DNA from: Pseudarthrobacter chlorophenolicus A6
GTDB lineage: Bacteria; Actinomycetota; Actinomycetes; Actinomycetales; Micrococcaceae
Assembly (NCBI RefSeq): GCF_000022025.1
Contig: NC_011886.1
Location: 3,761,209-3,825,208, forward strand
DNA: 64,000 bases
Direction: 5' to 3'
Translations under genes and position numbers: made by a program
Notes under the pieces: model-generated
Seen by the model: only the letters and a program-made list of their open reading frames with translations
Told to the model about the DNA's origin: nothing
Databases searched by the model: none
Shown here: piece after piece, positions 53,204-64,000 of the stretch
How the letters are laid out: every line of letters starts with the position of its first letter
Numbering within the stretch: the first letter of the stretch is position 1

Positions 53204-54043
53204 ATGGCAGTGGAAGCACACCATCCGCGGGCGGCTTTCCCTTCGGGGATACCTTCCCGCCCGCGGATGCCCCACAGCCGGCAGATGGCGGATCCTTCCA
53301 TGACGCAGCCTCCTCGTTCAGCCCGGCCCCCACGGCCGGTCCAGCCGCAAGCTGTGGCCCGGGGCCTGGCTGTGTGGGTGGTGCCGGACGAAGGAACCAG
53401 CCCCGAAATCCTGGCCCGGGCCGCCGAACTGGTGCTCGCCCGCGCCCTGCAGACTGCTCCGGAGGCGGAAGTCCACTGGCCTGCCGCCGGAGCCCCCACG
53501 TCCGGGGCCTCCGCCGCGGAGAGAGCCACAGACCACTCCTCCCGCACTCCCTCCACGGCGGAGGACCCCGGCGATTCAGCCCGTGCATCATCGGGAAATC
53601 CAACCGGCGAGCCAACGGACAAGGCCGGCGGCAACGCTGCCGGGACTGGTGTTGCCGAATCCGGGGCGGCGGGCAACGTGGACCACGACGCTGCCCACCT
53701 GCCGCCGTCGGCCGGGCCCGTCAGCACCGTGGCCGTGGACCTCGCTGCCGATACAGTCCTCTTGGACGGTTCGCCGGTGTCCCTGACCGGCGTCGAATAC
53801 AAGGTGCTGCGGTTCCTGGTCACGCACCTGTCCCGCACCGTCAGCCGGGAAGAGCTTCAGGAATTCCTGGAGTTCCTGAATTACCCCGGCGCCACCGCCC
53901 GGTCCATCGACGTCTATGTGGGCCGGATCCGCCGGAAGCTTGGCAACGCCCGCCACGCCGTGGCCACCGTCCGCGGCGGCGGCTACCAGTTCATCCCCGG
54001 CCCGCACGCCACCGTGCGCGGGCCCGCCGAATACTCCATCTGA
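53204..54043 (+). CDS. Winged-helix (OmpR/PhoB-type) DNA-binding protein with long disordered N-terminal half
   Basis: The 279-aa product's ATG is nine bases after the allB stop, with AGGGA close by. Residues 1-180 are Pro/Ala-rich without a receiver domain; a short ordered piece AVWVVPDEGTSPEILARAAE is present. Residues about 185-265 form a Trans_reg_C winged helix: LTGVEYKVLRFLVTHLSRTV, ARSIDVYVGRIRRKLG and TVRGGGYQF. The lack of a phosphorylatable receiver makes it an atypical regulator. It may regulate the allB operon or the following bcp gene, which starts 19 nt downstream. Confidence 0.8.
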   Translation: MAVEAHHPRAAFPSGIPSRPRMPHSRQMADPSMTQPPRSARPPRPVQPQAVARGLAVWVVPDEGTSPEILARAAELVLARALQTAPEAEVHWPAAGAPTSGASAAERATDHSSRTPSTAEDPGDSARASSGNPTGEPTDKAGGNAAGTGVAESGAAGNVDHDAAHLPPSAGPVSTVAVDLAADTVLLDGSPVSLTGVEYKVLRFLVTHLSRTVSREELQEFLEFLNYPGATARSIDVYVGRIRRKLGNARHAVATVRGGGYQFIPGPHATVRGPAEYSI

Positions 54044-54062
54044 AACCCCACCGAGGAGCAGC

Positions 54063-54605
54063 ATGACCACCGCGCCCAACAACACCGTGCCCACAAACAC
54101 CGTGCCCACAAACACCGCGCCCAACAACACCGCGCCCTACGCCGCCCGGCTCCAGCCCGGCAGCCCCGCTCCGGCATTCACCCTTCCGGACGCCGGCGGC
54201 AACCCCGTCTCCCTCGAGTCCTTCCAGGGCCGGAACGTGATTGTGTACTTCTACCCGAAGGCCGCCACCCCCGGCTGCACCACCGAAGCGTGCGATTTCC
54301 GTGACAACCTGGCCTCACTGCAGGGCCGCGGCTACGACGTCCTGGGCGTTTCCCCGGACGCCCCGGAAGCCCTGGCCGGCTTCACCGCAGACCACTCCCT
54401 GACGTTCCCGCTGCTCTCGGACCGGGACCACGCCGTCGCCCGGGCTTACGGCGCCTGGGGCGAGAAGCTGGTTAACGGCGAGATTGTCGAAGGCGTCCTG
54501 CGCTCCACTGTGGTGGTGGGTCCGGACGGCCGTGCCATCCTCGCGCAGTACCAGGTTGACGCCCAGGGCCACGTCGCGGCGCTGCGGGAAGAACTCGGCC
54601 TCTAG
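54063..54605 (+). CDS. bcp: Peroxiredoxin, BCP/PrxQ type (copy 1)
   Basis: The product is 180 aa from the ATG at 54063, with GAGGAG upstream. Residues 2-25 are an Asn/Thr/Pro repeat (NTVPTNT) absent from copy 2. The peroxidatic cysteine is in ATPGCTTEACDFRD, with the resolving cysteine five residues later, as in PrxQ. It reduces H2O2 and organic peroxides with thioredoxin. Copy 2 at 56575 is about three quarters identical by eye. The gene may be co-transcribed with the winged-helix gene. Confidence 0.92.
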   Translation: MTTAPNNTVPTNTVPTNTAPNNTAPYAARLQPGSPAPAFTLPDAGGNPVSLESFQGRNVIVYFYPKAATPGCTTEACDFRDNLASLQGRGYDVLGVSPDAPEALAGFTADHSLTFPLLSDRDHAVARAYGAWGEKLVNGEIVEGVLRSTVVVGPDGRAILAQYQVDAQGHVAALREELGL

Positions 54606-54727: not shown

Positions 54728-54831
54728 GCGCATCGGGTTTCGCATACCGGCCGCATGGCACCAGCACAGCAACGGCACAGCTGCGCCGGGGAACGTGGGT
54801 GGAACACATCCCCGAGCCTGAAGCAGGACCC

Positions 54832-56448
54832 ATGCGACGTTCCCCCGGTGCCATTCTTTCCGCATCCGCCCTGGCGGCAGCCCTTGCCCTGACCGGGTGC
54901 GGTGCTGGGGCAGGTGCAGAGCTGTCCGGCACGCCGGCCACGTCCGCAGCGTCGTCCGACGCGGGAGTTGACGCCGGCACCAGCACCACGGAGACCACGA
55001 CGGCGGACTCCACCCTGTTCACGGACGGCGCCTCCCACACGGTCAGCGTCACGTGGAACGAGGACGACTACGCCGCAATGATCGCCGCCTACGAGGCCGA
55101 CGGGTCCAAGGACTGGATCGCCGCGGACATCACCATCGACGGCACCACCGTGTCCAACGTGGGCGTGCGCCTCAAGGGCAATTCCACGCTTCGGAGCCTG
55201 AGCGGCAGCGGGAACGGCGCGGGCGGCGGGATGGGCGGGAACGCGGCGTCGTCCGGGATCTCCTCCGACGTCCCTGAGTCCCTGCCCCTGCTGATCCGCT
55301 TCGACAAGTACGTGGACGGCCAGACCTACCAGGGGCTGGGCGAGGTGTCGCTGCGCCCTGGCTCTCCCGTCCTGAATGAGGCGCTGGCCCTGGCCCTCAC
55401 CGGGGCCAGCGGCCAGGCCACGCAGCGGTACGCCTACACCACCTACTCAGTGAATGGCAGCCCCACCCAGACCAGGCTGCTCGTGGAAAACCCCGATGAG
55501 GACTATGCGGATTCCCTGTTCGATACCCCGGGAGTCCTCTACAAAGCCGATGCCGATTCCAGTTTCACTTACCAGGGCGACGACCTGGCCACCTACGAGG
55601 ACCAGTTCAAGCAGCTCAACAACGGGGAGAGTGAGACTGTCCAGCCCATCGTCGACTTCCTCAAGTGGCTGTCCGAAGCCACCGACGAGGAATTCGACGC
55701 CGGCCTGGCGGAGCGCGTGGATGTGGAGTCCTTCGCCCGCTACACCGCCACGATGAACCTGCTGGTCAACGGCGATGACATGGCCGGCCCCGGCCAGAAC
55801 TACTACCTCTGGTACAGCCTGGACACCAGGAAGATCTCCGTCATCTCCTGGGACCTCAACCTCGCCATGACCGGCGACGCCACGGCATCGCCCGAGGCGC
55901 AACTGTCCATCGGAGGCGGCGGAGGCGGCGCGGGCGGCGGAGGCGGCGGAGGCGGCGCGGGCGGCGGAGGCGGCGGAGGCGGCGCGGGCGGCGGCATGCA
56001 GCCTCCGGGATCGGACGACGGCGGCCGGGCACCTTTTGCCGGCGCCGCGGCGGATGCTGGCGGCGCAGCGGATGCTGACGGCACGGCAGCAGCGGATGGG
56101 GCAGGGCCGGGCGAAGCGGCCCCGGGCGGAGCAGGGCCGGGTGAAGCGGCAACAGGTACCTGGGATGCCGCAGCAGGTACCGGCGCAGGCGGTGGAGGCG
56201 GCCGCGGCGGCAACGAACTGAAGGAAAGGTTCCTGGCTTCGGATGCCTTCCAGTCCGTGTATGACGCCGCCTACGCGGATCTTTACGCCCAGCTGTACGC
56301 CAGCGGAACCGCCGCCAGCCTCCTGGACTCAATTGCCGCCGTCGTACCCCTCAGCGACGGCCTCACCGCCGAGGAACTGGCTGGTGAAACGCAGACCCTG
56401 CGCACTTTCATCCAGGAACGCACGGATGCGCTGAAGGGCCAGGTCTAG
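54832..56448 (+). CDS. CotH-kinase family lipoprotein
   Basis: The product is 538 aa from the ATG at 54832, with AGGA ahead; a GTG 33 nt upstream is an alternative. The signal peptide ends in the lipobox LALTGC. The CotH fold is shown by VGVRLKGNSTLRS, LLIRFDKYVDGQ, RLLVENPDEDYAD and VISWDLNLAM, with the Mg-binding D-x-N. Eukaryote-like CotH kinases phosphorylate secreted proteins; the bacterial surface members are mostly uncharacterised. A Gly/Ala tract of about 25 residues (DNA 55913-55994), followed by an Ala/Gly/Asp-rich tract to about 56215, splits the C-terminal part directly after the metal motif. The gene is flanked by two bcp copies. Confidence 0.85.
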   Translation: MRRSPGAILSASALAAALALTGCGAGAGAELSGTPATSAASSDAGVDAGTSTTETTTADSTLFTDGASHTVSVTWNEDDYAAMIAAYEADGSKDWIAADITIDGTTVSNVGVRLKGNSTLRSLSGSGNGAGGGMGGNAASSGISSDVPESLPLLIRFDKYVDGQTYQGLGEVSLRPGSPVLNEALALALTGASGQATQRYAYTTYSVNGSPTQTRLLVENPDEDYADSLFDTPGVLYKADADSSFTYQGDDLATYEDQFKQLNNGESETVQPIVDFLKWLSEATDEEFDAGLAERVDVESFARYTATMNLLVNGDDMAGPGQNYYLWYSLDTRKISVISWDLNLAMTGDATASPEAQLSIGGGGGGAGGGGGGGGAGGGGGGGGAGGGMQPPGSDDGGRAPFAGAAADAGGAADADGTAAADGAGPGEAAPGGAGPGEAATGTWDAAAGTGAGGGGGRGGNELKERFLASDAFQSVYDAAYADLYAQLYASGTAASLLDSIAAVVPLSDGLTAEELAGETQTLRTFIQERTDALKGQV

Positions 56449-56574: not shown

Positions 56575-57054
56575 ATGAGCCAGACCTTGACCACCAAGCT
56601 TCAGCCCGGAACTCCCGCTCCCGACTTCACCCTCCGGGATGCCCAGGGCCGGGAAATCTCCCTGGCCGATTACCGTGGCAAGAATGTCATTGTGTACTTC
56701 TACCCCAAGGCCGCAACCCCCGGCTGCACCACCGAAGCCTGCGACTTCCGCGACAGCCTGGGCGCGCTGCAGGGCCAGGGGTACGAGGTAGTTGGCATCT
56801 CCCCCGACGCCCAGGAAGCCCTGGCCGGCTTCAGCGGCGACTTCTCCCTGACGTTCCCGCTGCTCTCCGACCAGGACCACGCTGTTGCCCTTGCCTACGG
56901 CGCCTGGGGCGAGAAGCTGGTCGACGGCGAGATCGTTGAGGGCATCGTCCGCTCCACCGTTGTGGTGGACACCGAGGGCAAGGTTGTCCTGGCGCAGTAC
57001 CAGGTGAAGGCCGACGGCCACGTGGCCCGGCTGAAGGAAGCCCTGGGACTCTAG
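56575..57054 (+). CDS. bcp: Peroxiredoxin, BCP/PrxQ type (copy 2)
   Basis: The 159-aa product starts at ATG after AAAGGAACGCC. It has the same catalytic segment as copy 1 (ATPGCTTEACDFRD) and the same C-terminal half with small changes; it lacks the N-terminal Asn/Thr repeat. Length is standard for BCP. A strong terminator follows. Two close copies only 2.5 kb apart, with a CotH gene between them, suggest a local duplication. Confidence 0.93.
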   Translation: MSQTLTTKLQPGTPAPDFTLRDAQGREISLADYRGKNVIVYFYPKAATPGCTTEACDFRDSLGALQGQGYEVVGISPDAQEALAGFSGDFSLTFPLLSDQDHAVALAYGAWGEKLVDGEIVEGIVRSTVVVDTEGKVVLAQYQVKADGHVARLKEALGL

Positions 57055-59431: not shown

Positions 59432-60547
59432 ATGGTCTCTCCCCCTGAAGTTCGTCATGCCGTTGTCATCGAGGATGACCCGGACATCCGCGGGCTCCTG
59501 GTCCGCGTGCTGACCAAGCAGGGCTTCATCGTCACGGAAGCCGGTGAAGGCCTCACCGGCGTGGAGGAAGTCCGGCGCAGCCAGCCGGACCTGGTCACCC
59601 TTGACCTGAACCTCCCGGACCTGGATGGCCTGGAAGTCTGCAAACTCCTCCGCGAATTCTCCGATGCGTTCATCGTCATGCTGACCGCCCGCGCCGACGA
59701 GCTGGACAAGCTGACGGGCCTGGACAACGGTGCGGACGAATACATCAGCAAGCCGTTCAGCCCCCGCGAACTGCAGTCGAGGATCAACGCGCTGTTCCGC
59801 CGCCGCCCTTCCCCCGCCGCCGCCGACACCGCATCGCTGAGCGAACTCCAGCGTGCCACCGAGGTCCAGCAGAGCCTCCTGCCCAAGGAGGACATCCGTG
59901 TTGAGGGGTACGACGTTGCCGGGGTCTTCCGTCCTTCACGCAGCGTGGGCGGGGACTTCTACGACTGGTACCAGACGCCCGAAGGGCTGCACCTGACCTT
60001 TGCCGATGCCATGGGCAAGGGCATGGGTGCTGCGCTGATCGCCGCCACCGTCCGCGCCGTCATGCGCTCCACCGGCCGCCGGCAGGACCTGGACGGCGCG
60101 TTCGCCTCCGCCAGCAAGGCCATCGCCACGGACCTCGACTCCTCCAACTCCTTTGTCACCCTCTTCCACGCCCGGCTGGACGCGCCGTCAGGCCGGGTCA
60201 GCTATGTAGACGCCGGCCACGGGCTCGCACTGCACGTCGAGGCCGGCGGGGCAGCACACCGCCTTCCGTCCGGCGGACCGCCGGTGGGGGCCTGGTCCGG
60301 GTCCGAGTGGCCGCAGTCCGGCCTTGACCTGGCGCCCGGGGACTGCCTGGTGGTGGTCAGCGACGGCGTGCTGGATGTCTTTGAAACCGTGGAGGACTTC
60401 ACCGAAGCGGTCCGGCGGGCCACGCAGGCCGAACATTCCGCGCAGGCGGCCAGCAGCGCCATCCTGTCCCTCGCCCCGGCCGAAACAGCGGAGGACGACG
60501 TGACGGTGGTTGTGGTCCGCAGGCTCCCGCAGGAGGTGGCGGCATGA
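59432..60547 (+). CDS. Response-regulator receiver domain fused to a PP2C-type (SpoIIE) phosphatase
   Basis: The 371-aa product has a receiver at residues 8-122: acid pocket EDD (14-16), phospho-acceptor D58 (LVTLDLNLPDLDG), T85 and K107 (SKPFS). A short linker helix (LSELQRATEVQQSLLPKED) leads to a PP2C/SpoIIE domain at about 160-365, with metal aspartates in GGDFYDW (D175) and FADAMGKGMGAAL (D192) and a late EDDVTVVVV. It is of RsbU/RssB-like type. When activated by phosphorylation it should dephosphorylate the STAS protein encoded at 62513. GAGACA and TACGGT (59391, 59414) could be its promoter. The stop overlaps the next start (ATGA). Confidence 0.92.
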   Translation: MVSPPEVRHAVVIEDDPDIRGLLVRVLTKQGFIVTEAGEGLTGVEEVRRSQPDLVTLDLNLPDLDGLEVCKLLREFSDAFIVMLTARADELDKLTGLDNGADEYISKPFSPRELQSRINALFRRRPSPAAADTASLSELQRATEVQQSLLPKEDIRVEGYDVAGVFRPSRSVGGDFYDWYQTPEGLHLTFADAMGKGMGAALIAATVRAVMRSTGRRQDLDGAFASASKAIATDLDSSNSFVTLFHARLDAPSGRVSYVDAGHGLALHVEAGGAAHRLPSGGPPVGAWSGSEWPQSGLDLAPGDCLVVVSDGVLDVFETVEDFTEAVRRATQAEHSAQAASSAILSLAPAETAEDDVTVVVVRRLPQEVAA

Positions 60548-62523
60548 CCCGGTTCTGGACCCGCCTGGTGGTGGTGCTGACTGTGATCACCGGCGTCAAC
60601 TACATTGCCTGGCGGTGGATGGCCTCCCTGAACTGGGAAGCCTGGTGGATCGCACTGCCGTTGGTCATCGCCGAAACGTACAGCCTCATCGACGTGATGC
60701 TGTTCGGCATGACGGTGTGGAACCTGAAGATCCGCAAGGGCGCCCCGGAGCCGCCGGCCGACGCTACTGTGGACGTCTTCATCACCACGTACAACGAGGA
60801 CCTCGACATGGTCCTCACCACGGCGCTGGCGGCCCAGAAGATCCGGCACCCACACAGCACCTGGATCCTTGACGACGGCGCCCGCCCGGAGATGAAGGCA
60901 CTGGCCGAACAGCACGGCCTGGGTTATGTGACCCGCAGCGAGGACTGGACCAAGGACCTGCCGCGCCATGCCAAGGCCGGCAACCTGAACAATGCGCTGA
61001 TGCAGACCGACGGCGAATTCCTGCTGATCCTGGACGCGGACCAGATCCCCGAGCCGGACATCCTGGAAAAGACGCTGGGCTACTTCAACAACCGCAAGGT
61101 GGCGTTGGTCCAGACGCCGCAGTACTTCAGCAACGTTCCGGCCGATGACCCCCTGGGCAGCCAGGCGCCGCTGTTCTACGGACCCATCCAGCAGGGCAAG
61201 GACGGCTGGAACGCCGCCTTCTTCTGCGGCTCCAACGCCATCCTGCGCCGCGAAGCGCTGATGCAGCTGGGCCTGGTGGGCTACGTGAAGGAAACCGAGA
61301 AGAGCATCCGCCGTGCGCTGGCCGCTTCCCGGCAGGCCATCCGGCAGGCCCGCAAATCCACGGACATGGACTCGCCGCTGGTGGCCCAGGTCCTGGACGA
61401 GGTGGAGGCCGCCACCGTGGAGGCGCAGCAGGAACTGGATTCCGGCATGGCGCTCAGCGAGATCACCTACCGGGTGCGCCGCCGCGTGGACACGGCCGTG
61501 CAGACCCTGGTCCAGGCCGACGTCGAGGCCCTGCAGTCTGACCTCGAGGAAATCGCGGCCATGGAGCTCGCGCATGTTGGTGAGGCCGGCGTTCCGGTGG
61601 TGGCTGACGACGCTGTGCAGCGCATGTCCGCCCGCGACTGGTCCCCGCTGGGTGCCCTCGAATCGGTCCAGGCCGTCCTGGATGCCCTGTCGGTGGAACG
61701 CAACGATGAAGCCCAGCCCATCATGCCGCTGGCCACCATCTCGGTCACCGAGGACATGGCCACCGCCATGCGCATGCACGCCATGGGGTGGGAGAGCGTC
61801 TACCACCACGAGATCCTTGCCTACGGCCTGGCGCCGGAGGACCTGAAGACGATGCTCACCCAGCGGCTCCGCTGGGCCCAGGGCACCATCCAGGTGCTGC
61901 TCCGCGAAAACCCGCTGGTGCAGAAGGGCCTGAAGATCGGCCAGCGGCTGATGTACTTCGCCACCATGTGGACCTACCTGAGCGGCTTCGCGGCGGTCAT
62001 CTACTTCGCCGCCCCCATCATCTACCTGCTGCTGGGCATCCTGCCCGTCACCAGCCTCAGCTGGGACTTCTTTATCCGGTTCATCCCGTTCATGGTGGTC
62101 AACCAGCTGCTGTTCGCGGTGGCCGGCCGCGGCATTCCCACCTGGCGCGGCCAGCAGTACAGCCTCGCCCTGTTCCCAACCTGGATCAAAGCGTGTACGA
62201 CGGCGGCCCGCAACGTGTGGTTCGGCCGTCCCCTGGGGTTCGCGGTGACGCCCAAGGCGCGCCAAAGCGGCGGACCCAGCTGGAGCCTGATCCAGCCCCA
62301 GATCGTGGTGTCCATCCTGCTGGCCGTGGCCGCCGTCGTCGGAATTGTCCGCCTGGCCACCGGCCTGGCCGAACCGCTGGGCACCCTGGTCAACGTGGCC
62401 TGGGTGATCTTCGACCTGGTGGTCATGAGCATCCTGGTCCGCGCCGTGCTCTACAAGGGCTTTGAGCCGCCCGCAGAATCCACAGAACCTGTAAATACAG
62501 AGAGGAATCCCGATGGAGTTTAG
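60544..62523 (+). CDS. Family 2 glycosyltransferase (cellulose-synthase-like) with a large helical insertion
   Basis: The 659-aa product has two N-terminal transmembrane helices (residues 5-60). The GT2 catalytic domain has TTYNEDLD (81-88), LDDG (109-112), LDADQIPEPD (163-172), GSNAILRRE (229-237), TED (402-404) and QRLRW (440-444). At least three C-terminal helices follow. In BcsA-like enzymes GSNAxLRR and TED are about 20 residues apart; here about 150 residues (roughly 245-398) of charged, coiled-coil-like helix are inserted, including SIRRALAASRQAIRQARK and AVQTLVQADVEALQSDLEE. It probably makes a surface polysaccharide. No PilZ domain is seen. It overlaps both neighbours, so it is co-translated with a partner-switch module. 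Confidence 0.9.
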   Translation: MTRFWTRLVVVLTVITGVNYIAWRWMASLNWEAWWIALPLVIAETYSLIDVMLFGMTVWNLKIRKGAPEPPADATVDVFITTYNEDLDMVLTTALAAQKIRHPHSTWILDDGARPEMKALAEQHGLGYVTRSEDWTKDLPRHAKAGNLNNALMQTDGEFLLILDADQIPEPDILEKTLGYFNNRKVALVQTPQYFSNVPADDPLGSQAPLFYGPIQQGKDGWNAAFFCGSNAILRREALMQLGLVGYVKETEKSIRRALAASRQAIRQARKSTDMDSPLVAQVLDEVEAATVEAQQELDSGMALSEITYRVRRRVDTAVQTLVQADVEALQSDLEEIAAMELAHVGEAGVPVVADDAVQRMSARDWSPLGALESVQAVLDALSVERNDEAQPIMPLATISVTEDMATAMRMHAMGWESVYHHEILAYGLAPEDLKTMLTQRLRWAQGTIQVLLRENPLVQKGLKIGQRLMYFATMWTYLSGFAAVIYFAAPIIYLLLGILPVTSLSWDFFIRFIPFMVVNQLLFAVAGRGIPTWRGQQYSLALFPTWIKACTTAARNVWFGRPLGFAVTPKARQSGGPSWSLIQPQIVVSILLAVAAVVGIVRLATGLAEPLGTLVNVAWVIFDLVVMSILVRAVLYKGFEPPAESTEPVNTERNPDGV

Positions 62524-62845
62524 CTATGAGGTCAAGGACTCATACGCCGAGGTCAAGGCGGACGGGCGGCTGAACATGGTGTCCGCGCCCAAGCTCCGCG
62601 AGTTCGTCACGGATGTGATTGCCGGCGGGTCCAACCGGATTGTGGTCAACCTGGAAAACACCGCCTTCATGGATTCGTCCGGGCTGGGCGCCCTGATCGG
62701 TTGCCTGAAGGCTGCGCGGCAGGCCGGCGGGGACCTCCGGATCGCGGCGGTCCAGCCGCAGGTGAAGATGGTCCTGCAGCTCACCAGCATGGACAAGGTC
62801 CTCACGGCCTACCCGTCGGTCGAAGAGGCGTTCAGCAATGACTGA
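62513..62845 (+). CDS. STAS domain anti-sigma factor antagonist-like protein
   Basis: The 110-aa product's ATG lies within the end of the glycosyltransferase gene (11-nt overlap), with AGAGAGGAAT ahead. The single STAS domain carries the phosphorylatable serine pair in FMDSSGLGALIG (S55/S56), as in SpoIIAA/RsbV. It should be phosphorylated by the RsbW-like kinase at 62838 and dephosphorylated by the PP2C protein at 59432. The gene overlaps the next by eight bases. Confidence 0.92.
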   Translation: MEFSYEVKDSYAEVKADGRLNMVSAPKLREFVTDVIAGGSNRIVVNLENTAFMDSSGLGALIGCLKAARQAGGDLRIAAVQPQVKMVLQLTSMDKVLTAYPSVEEAFSND

Positions 62846-63263
62846 GGTGCTCGCCTCGCGCAGCTTCCGCGGGCTCGCCACCGAAGACGCCATCAACGAC
62901 GTCCACAACGACATGGACAGCCTGTGGCTCGATGTGCCGTTCGTGAATGACATGGACCAGATGACGTTCACCACGGCGGTGATCGAGTCAGCGTCCAACA
63001 TTGTCCAGCACGCCGAACCGGCGGCCGCGGATCCCGTGGAACTGGGCGTGGACATCACTGTGGAGCCGCTGCTGCTCCAGGCCCGCGTCAGCGCCTACAA
63101 CGCCAAGCCGCCCTTTGGACCCATGGAACCGGCAACGCCGGGCGAGGACGCCGAGTCTGGCCGCGGGCTCGCCCTGATCCAGGCCCTGGTGACCACGGTG
63201 ACGTTCGAACGGCAGGACGGCACCAGCACCTGGGTGCTGTCCAGGACGTCTTCCCAGGACTGA
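62838..63263 (+). CDS. RsbW/SpoIIAB-like serine kinase (anti-sigma factor type HATPase)
   Basis: The 141-aa GHKL ATPase has N-box IESASNIVQHAEP (E50, N54, H58) and a G-box AESGRGLALIQAL. There is no DHp domain, so it is a partner-switch kinase rather than a sensor kinase. It probably phosphorylates the STAS protein and holds a target in check. No sigma factor is encoded nearby, so the target may be a sigma factor elsewhere or the glycosyltransferase itself. It is the last gene of the operon; a palindromic element follows. Confidence 0.9.
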   Translation: MTEVLASRSFRGLATEDAINDVHNDMDSLWLDVPFVNDMDQMTFTTAVIESASNIVQHAEPAAADPVELGVDITVEPLLLQARVSAYNAKPPFGPMEPATPGEDAESGRGLALIQALVTTVTFERQDGTSTWVLSRTSSQD

Positions 63264-63321: not shown

Positions 63322-64000
63322 CTAAACCTGGTGCTGCCCCTTCGCGGGGAACAGCACGGAGACGGTGGCTCCGCCGCCGGGAGTTTCACTGATGCCCAGT
63401 TCACCTCCGTGCGACTGGGCAATCCGCTGGCACGTCGCCAGGCCCAGCCCCGTACCCGGCCCGTCGCCTGGCCGGTGGAGCCGGACCAGCGGTTCAACCG
63501 CCCGTACGCGGTCGGCCGGGCTGATGCCCTTGCCGTTGTCTGCCACATGGACGGTGACGCCGCGGGGGCAGGTGGTGGCGGTGATGGCTACTTCCAGCGC
63601 GCGCCCGGGCTCCCGATAGTTCAGCGAGTTGGCCAGCAGGTTCTGGACCAGGGTGCGCAGCTGTTGGCGGTCCGCGGTGAGTTCGGCGTCCTCGCAGAGG
63701 AAACCGCTGCCCAGCCCCAGGTCCACTCCGAGGTCCTGGGCAGCTTCTGCCGTGACGGCCAGCAGGGACACCCGTTCAAGGTGCAGCTCCCCATCCGCGC
63801 GGGCATAGTTGAGCACGTCCTCGAGGGTTCCCAGCATGCGCCGTCCGCCGGTGCCAATAAGCCCCAGGTACTCGGCCGCCGGGTTGTCCGGGGCCAGGTC
63901 GGGATCGTCCTCGGCGAGCTCCACGTACCCCAGGATGGTGGTCAGCGGGGCGCGGAGGTCATGGCTGACGCGGCCGGCGAATTCGGAGAGCATGGCGTTG
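63322..64000 (-). CDS. Sensor histidine kinase, C-terminal part (5' end outside window)
   Basis: The frame is open to the right edge of the window, so the sensor part is not visible. The DHp H-box is FAGRVSHDLRAPLTTILGYVEL, with the phospho-acceptor His. It is followed by the N-box LVQNLLANSLNYRE, G1 VADNGKGIS, G2 GTGLGLATCQRI and G3 GGGATVSVLFP. It is a standard HisKA + HATPase_c kinase. The NSLNYRE form lacks the usual NA.KY order but keeps the asparagine. It converges with the partner-switch operon; a functional link is possible but not shown. Confidence 0.9.
   Translation of the reverse strand, partial: NAMLSEFAGRVSHDLRAPLTTILGYVELAEDDPDLAPDNPAAEYLGLIGTGGRRMLGTLEDVLNYARADGELHLERVSLLAVTAEAAQDLGVDLGLGSGFLCEDAELTADRQQLRTLVQNLLANSLNYREPGRALEVAITATTCPRGVTVHVADNGKGISPADRVRAVEPLVRLHRPGDGPGTGLGLATCQRIAQSHGGELGISETPGGGATVSVLFPAKGQHQV

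Follow-up and report, generated by a model that had tools for sequence, protein, structure and literature searches.

The DNA analysed here, a window of 64,000 nucleotides from Pseudarthrobacter chlorophenolicus A6 (NC_011886.1, positions 3,761,209 to 3,825,208), carries a set of overlapping genes in which a polysaccharide synthase with an unusual insertion stands among the components of a partner switch. The first gene of the set (59432..60547, +) encodes a response regulator (residues 11-118; PF00072, 95.8 bits) fused to a SpoIIE/PP2C phosphatase (residues 184-364; PF07228, 113.6 bits). It is followed by genes for a BcsA-fold glycosyltransferase family 2 (GT2) polysaccharide synthase of 659 amino acids plus stop (60544..62523, +), an RsbV/SpoIIAA-like STAS protein of 110 amino acids (62513..62845, +; PF01740, 72.3 bits; TIGR00377, 87 bits) and an RsbW-like HATPase_c_2 protein kinase of 141 amino acids (62838..63263, +; PF13581, 38 bits, cut-off 27.4). 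The open reading frames (ORFs) overlap by 4 nucleotides (PP2C and synthase), 11 nucleotides (synthase and STAS) and 8 nucleotides (STAS and RsbW), in agreement with a preliminary description of this DNA in which the synthase gene was said to overlap a STAS/RsbW-like/PP2C module. On the opposite strand lies the C-terminal half of a GAF-HisKA-HATPase histidine kinase (63322..63999, -; 427 amino acids in full, L310:5531-6814), the likely input to the response regulator.

The STAS protein carries a DSSG sequence (residues 54-57; 62672..62683, +), the predicted phospho-acceptor site. Among 154 non-redundant modules, chosen for a STAS and an RsbW gene near a synthase (179 before removal of near-copies), D54, S55 and S56 are identical in all 154, and the N-box residues E50, N54 and H58 of the kinase are kept in 153, 153 and 151, respectively. 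Membership of the STAS family and the phosphorylatable-type serine of DSSG place the former protein with RsbV/SpoIIAA, and a HATPase_c_2 domain with an N-box places the latter with the RsbW/SpoIIAB kinases, although it misses the cut-off of the anti-sigma B equivalog NF003144 (14.9 bits vs 145). The input domain of the phosphatase varies, being a response regulator at the home locus and GAF in four other phosphatases scanned; the response regulator-PP2C fusion occurs in 36 of 81 loci with feature tables, and a GAF histidine kinase lies near 15 of those 36. Because the STAS, RsbW and PP2C families are known for sigma-factor control, the switch could be a transcriptional one, in which RsbW would sequester a sigma factor, the synthase would be a regulon member or target, and adjacency would reflect co-transcription. 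No sigma-factor Pfam domain was found in the nine neighbour proteins scanned (six in L310, three in the window), a count that speaks for the home locus only.

The synthase has intact DDG, DxD, TED and QxxRW motifs (D110-D111-G, D164-A-D166, T402-E-D404 and Q440-RLR-W444), which, together with its BcsA fold, identify it as a GT2 enzyme of the BcsA type, and key motif residues are kept in 152-154 of the 154 modules. The preliminary description was accurate in its ORF (60544-62523), in the positions of GSNAILRRE (residues 229-237) and TED (402-404), and in calling the catalytic motifs intact and the enzyme free of PilZ: no PilZ match was found in the synthase up to E 0.1, and the protein ends 23 residues past its last predicted helix. 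The synthase falls short of the TIGR03030 cut-off (cellulose synthase catalytic subunit/CelA equivalog; 355.1 bits vs 699.1) and differs from BcsA (TIGR03030; PDB 9b8v, 4p00) in that no PilZ was found, a 150-residue insertion precedes TED, and partner-switch genes adjoin it. A phmmer search against PDB breaks at this insertion (residues 246-395; 61279..61728, +), aligning query residues 3-245 and 396-632 with residues 196-449 and 449-686 of E. coli BcsA. From R236 to T402 the synthase has 165 intervening residues, compared with 163-174 in other sequences with a standard insertion, 123 in three with a short insertion, and 14 in 12/12 aligned insertion-less relatives. The earlier claim of about 150 extra residues between the motifs is thereby confirmed (about 14 residues in E. 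coli BcsA and the 12 relatives), and its statement that the motifs usually lie about 20 residues apart fits the bacterial enzymes (14 in 12 relatives) but not plant CesA/CslF (118-137).

Charged residues make up 28% of the insertion and 16% of the remaining synthase, and AlphaFold2 structure prediction gave three moderately confident helices (residues 236-270, 278-299 and 304-343), in line with the charged, helical character first ascribed to the insertion. The predicted local distance difference test (pLDDT) score, averaged in blocks, is 72-88 for residues 241-330 and 59 for 331-340, and a low-confidence stretch follows, with values under 50 for residues 340-365, 384-390 and 396-401. A further 112 insertions align to the window's own at 31-83% identity, with the strongest conservation toward the C-terminal end (R364, S367, P368, L369, A371, R386, E389, A390, Q391 and P395); this part includes an RDWSPLGA box (residues 364-371; 61633..61656, +) in which S367, P368 and A371 are present in at least 98% of the 113 sequences. 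Because these 112 insertions align to it, the insertion is no sequence artefact, and its reality is confirmed. A second candidate explanation, that such an insertion is common to all GT2 enzymes, was also rejected, given the 14 residues found in all of the aligned insertion-less relatives. A protein search with the insertion alone returned 248 proteins, and GT2 Pfam domains were present on all 120 matches listed. Neither Pfam nor PDB gave a convincing match: at most 10/113 insertions hit any one Pfam family (TraB_PrgY_gumN, best E 5e-5); the window's own insertion scored 16.4 bits against that family, below the cut-off of 26.8, and an insertion profile searched against PDB sequences gave nothing under E 0.065.

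Plant cellulose synthases have extra residues at the same point. Measured between match ends equivalent to residues 237-241 and 400 of the synthase, four solved CesA/CslF chains have 118-137 chain positions (8vht, 638 to 775; 7d5k, 620 to 738; 6wlb, 555 to 685; 8dqk, 508 to 630), E. coli BcsA has about 10, and the Pseudarthrobacter synthase has about 160. We identify the plant insertion, present at this position of the GT domain in all four chains, with the class-specific region (CSR) of CesA; equating the two by position is our own step, as the review consulted describes the region only. The CSR thus resembles the bacterial insertion in lying between the same two motifs and in its similar size, but the 20 matches that the insertion profile gave up to E 10 included no CesA chain. 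In sequence, the insertion does not align to a normal GT2 sub-domain, which the preliminary description had listed as grounds for refutation, though the plant insertion does share its position. The plant enzymes are not known to have a STAS partner. These comparisons raise the alternative that STAS acts on the synthase but binds elsewhere and that the insertion serves in assembly or oligomerisation. Such a function has been proposed for the CSR, which is discussed as an interaction/assembly region (PMC8306620). The conserved insertion residues cluster beside the catalytic core, as expected of a structural element, and would fit this alternative as well.

To place the insertion among its relatives, we used a tree of the catalytic core (insertion columns removed, 41 rows, quick search), in which several insertion-less rows have long branches. 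The insertion-bearing synthases form one side of a branch with Shimodaira-Hasegawa-like approximate likelihood ratio test (SH-aLRT) support of 99, and three short-insertion synthases (L089, L255 and L256) are together sister to all synthases with a standard insertion (support 98). The insertion therefore marks one clade of Actinomycetes synthases and corresponds to one change on the tree. In a sample of the class, 38/394 genomes had any match at E 1e-30, of which 22 (the home genome included) had a full-length insertion-type synthase, one had a broken copy (L024) and 15 matched in the N-terminal part only, the pattern of insertion-less relatives. Within the home family 22/120 genomes matched at E 1e-30, one of them through an insertion-less relative only; the corresponding counts were 30/149 in the family of G156 (E 1e-100), 13/101 in the family of G214, 34/199 in the family of G168 and 1/8 in the order of G108. 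In a draw across the phylum, 2/396 genomes matched at E 1e-60, neither of them new. Named genomes, when scanned, yielded at least 539 relatives, and the best 80, which we examined, include Arthrobacter, Pseudarthrobacter, Cryobacterium, Microbacterium, Clavibacter, Rathayibacter, Nocardioides, Aeromicrobium, Cellulomonas, Kocuria, a Rhodococcus and a Planktophila metagenome-assembled genome; on this basis the insertion-type synthase looks common in actinobacteria. The broken copy in G341, a 1.6 Mb genome, is at L097:8063-8737(+), and no module STAS was found in that genome.

The switch genes accompany the insertion closely. We compared 104 insertion-type loci (flanks of about 1.5 kb, three longer; ORFs in high-GC loci called by codon-position GC) with the 80 named loci, which were chosen by similarity to one orthologue and come from another collection whose organisms overlap with those of the 104. 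STAS is present in 98 of the 104, always directly downstream, RsbW in 98 and PP2C in 88; all 80 named loci have the insertion, with STAS in 79 (75 directly downstream), RsbW in 79 and PP2C in 73. In contrast, none of STAS, RsbW and PP2C was found around insertion-less relatives (0/19 places, flanks of about 1.5 kb), one of which has a response regulator. These 19 places combine 8 and 11 from separate searches; 12 were aligned, and the other seven have the two halves of the synthase side by side in pairwise matches. Two genomes (G271 and G334) carry both kinds of synthase, and the switch flanks only the insertion-type copy. The co-occurrence that the preliminary description proposed to look for is therefore present. 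The 104 loci exclude L024 (the broken glycosyltransferase of G341, with stops), L054/L056 (a second copy in G451, short insertion), L255 and L256, and include L084 and L254, which gave no tblastn match to the insertion; alignment shows the insertion in L084, and L254 must carry it too, since its single match spans query 7-647 within 635 codons.

Six of the 104 loci lack an adjoining STAS (L017, L042, L063, L247, L251 and L053), and L017 is cut by a contig end. The genomes of L042 (G504) and L063 (G533) have an unlinked PP2C-STAS-RsbW cassette with a STAS of 70% and 56% identity, respectively, and those of L247 and L251 carry, away from the synthase, a STAS of 61-62% identity with RsbW adjoining it; the unlinked STAS-RsbW pairs are those of G1165 and G1094. 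L053 (L087:7319-9367(+)) is the second synthase copy of G398, with its QxxRW region deleted and no STAS adjoining; G398 has one STAS beside the first copy plus a further one. Thus insertion-bearing glycosyltransferases outside such operons, which the preliminary description had expected to argue against a link, do exist (6/104 and 1/80), but four of the six genomes hold a module-type STAS elsewhere. For the reverse comparison, STAS was searched in 39 + 75 genomes, 103 of which (35 + 68, G341 with its broken copy included) have no intact insertion-type synthase. A STAS of at least 50% identity was found in one of these 103 (G1074) and in eight of the 11 synthase-bearing genomes, which had mostly been picked as exceptions; among the latter, G1253 has an adjacent STAS at 41%, and G1192 and G1242 have no STAS besides a domain fused to the synthase (E 1e-10).

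These fusions, at L255 and L256, join the STAS domain to the C-terminus of the synthase. The ORFs of G1192 and G1242 (796 and 791 amino acids) end in a domain scoring 26.4 and 23.0 bits against PF01740 (cut-off 22.6), and neither RsbW nor PP2C was found within 11 kb of L255 and L256. The G1192 fusion matches protein P0136 of Pseudoclavibacter sp. 13-3 in length and is 100% identical to it over the region searched; a third protein (P0137, 786 amino acids), 70% identical over that region, also has a fused STAS (precomputed PF13466). At L089, the remaining short-insertion member of the tree, STAS is encoded by its own adjacent gene (PF01740, 38.2 bits) and, like the fused domains of L255 and L256, lacks DSSG; there is no kinase within 18 kb. 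Two standard-insertion loci, L262 and L263, likewise have STAS and no RsbW within 18 kb, although the L262 genome (G1089) has RsbW beside a second STAS elsewhere. Both sub-clades thus share STAS as a partner, and it is the kinase and phosphatase that vary. Because STAS is adjacent or fused, with no kinase nearby, in the short-insertion sub-clade, it is probably the direct partner of the synthase.

This arrangement bears on each of the alternatives. The RsbW-like kinase, rather than STAS, might dock on the insertion in the style of an anti-sigma factor and inhibit the synthase, with dephosphorylated STAS titrating the kinase off; that is the standard direction of a partner switch and would suit the RsbW counts above (98/104 and 79/80) and the two loci, L247 and L251, where RsbW stays beside the synthase and STAS lies elsewhere. 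We nevertheless find kinase docking improbable, given STAS without a nearby kinase at L089, L262 and L263 (the kinase beside the second STAS of G1089 notwithstanding) and given the kinase-less fusions. The same fusions and kinase-less neighbours are hard to explain by sigma-factor sequestration, so that, even with the existence of a cassette lacking this synthase in its favour, a transcriptional switch appears more improbable still. An assembly role for the insertion is unlikely, though less so than either of these: in the loci we examined, insertion and STAS partnership occur in one and the same clade only, and the shortened insertion goes with a divergent, DSSG-less STAS, though this is a single case. 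A synthase paralogue at L090:3647-5593(-) (L084; G646) has lost DDG, DxD, TED and QxxRW and has kept the insertion, together with a 61% STAS with DSSG, PP2C and a 28% RsbW. Retention of this pseudo-enzyme with insertion and switch suggests that in its lineage the two may have a role beyond catalysis.

Together, these data are consistent with a polysaccharide synthase under post-translational partner-switch control. A signal received by the GAF histidine kinase and response regulator, or in the four other systems scanned by GAF on the phosphatase, would activate PP2C, which would remove phosphate from the DSSG serine of STAS, and the RsbW-like kinase would put it back. One phospho-form of STAS, the unphosphorylated one by analogy with SiaC, would then bind the cytosolic face of the synthase and alter its activity, and the helical insertion, which immediately precedes the active-site TED segment, would be the most likely docking surface and lever. 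The data themselves show the insertion, its clade, the co-occurrence of the genes, the conserved phospho-site and kinase residues and the natural STAS fusion; that STAS binds directly where it is not fused, that it docks on the insertion, and what the sign of the effect and the product are, we infer. We consider the proposal as a whole, with the insertion as the likely docking site, slightly more probable than its negation. The broader statement, that widespread actinobacterial synthases have a phospho-switched STAS as a direct allosteric subunit on the pre-TED insertion, with no c-di-GMP (cyclic diguanosine monophosphate) and no transcription step, we rate a little below an even chance.

Several observations weigh against this proposal. 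PP2C was not found in 16/104 and 7/80 loci, L247 and L251 keep RsbW, not STAS, beside the synthase, and L146 has the insertion but no STAS, RsbW or PP2C within 13 kb. The fused STAS domains of L255 and L256 are without DSSG and therefore are not themselves phospho-switches. G1074 has a similar STAS-RsbW cassette with PP2C but not this synthase, and G1089 has one as a second copy; the switch can therefore serve other targets. The co-occurrence counts are not independent events, since all insertion loci trace to one change. Coevolution tests also failed to help: in an underpowered mean-field direct coupling analysis (DCA) of 154 paired synthase/STAS/RsbW sets (Neff 109), the top insertion-STAS pair, GT251-STAS51, whose STAS member lies three residues before DSSG, reached 7.8 standard deviations, but the expected STAS-RsbW pairs, the positive control, were not enriched and a synthase-core/RsbW pair reached 8.6 standard deviations, so we gave this analysis no weight. 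Nor do partial distance correlations tell STAS and RsbW apart: with the core partialled out, the insertion correlates at 0.49 with STAS and at 0.51 with RsbW, and with the insertion partialled out, the core correlates at 0.30 with STAS; only 1/5 permutation controls gave a value. The cassettes that lie apart from a synthase, at L276:7341-8903 and L277:4467-6414, are related to the synthase switch, and no synthase was found in G1074.

The closest mechanistic precedent, by analogy, is SiaC-SiaD. In SiaABCD of Pseudomonas aeruginosa, according to the sections of the report available to us, a phosphatase and a kinase set the phospho-state of the STAS-like SiaC, whose unphosphorylated form binds the helical stalk of SiaD and activates it; phosphorylation blocks binding, and BgrV/BgrR and HsbA/HsbD are named in the same paper (PMC8457831). 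SiaD differs in being a diguanylate cyclase that acts on biofilm via c-di-GMP, whereas the target proposed here is the polysaccharide synthase itself. The natural STAS-synthase fusion suggests that the actinobacterial system may likewise be an enzyme-output partner switch of the SiaABCD type. SypA/SypE of Vibrio fischeri and HmpU/V/W of Nostoc also use STAS as a switch output, for biofilm polysaccharide and hormogonium development; in the excerpts consulted the target of STAS is called unknown or undefined and no synthase insertion is mentioned, and SypE is kinase and phosphatase at once (PMC10120452, PMC4517449, PMC8256260, PMC6495340). The joining of STAS to a glycosyltransferase has a precedent in Anabaena all4160, which is mentioned as a glycosyltransferase with a STAS domain (PMC8256260); that domain is N-terminal, unlike the C-terminal STAS of the actinobacterial fusions. 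No description of the present synthase-switch system was found in the open-access literature, as judged from the search results, subscription papers being mostly outside that search. Unlike for SypA and HmpV as they are described in those excerpts, a target for the STAS output can be proposed here from gene order and natural fusions, and the question is therefore testable with two purified proteins. If the proposal is true, production of a sugar polymer would be switched directly by protein phosphorylation, a cellulose-synthase-like enzyme would be under c-di-GMP-independent on/off control, and the same-site insertion of plant cellulose synthases would have a bacterial counterpart.

A membrane protein in which a GH26-like region is fused to an OpgC acyltransferase domain is often found near the synthase (for example L092:5702-8635(-), L098:3982-6474(-), L088:5255-8005(+) and L086:5317-8445(-)). 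By tblastn, GH26 is present in 23/80 and OpgC in 19/80 named loci, with a GH26 Pfam score below cut-off in some members, hinting that the product may be an acylated polymer with a built-in hydrolase. In the home genome, the nearest full-length relative is about 225 kb away. Further upstream in the window, a CotH-kinase gene (54799-56448; PF08757) bearing a long glycine-rich stretch has on either side a peroxiredoxin-like ORF, recognised by eye (53916-54605(+) and 56575-57054(+)); the two ORFs are similar, and the pair looks like a local duplication.

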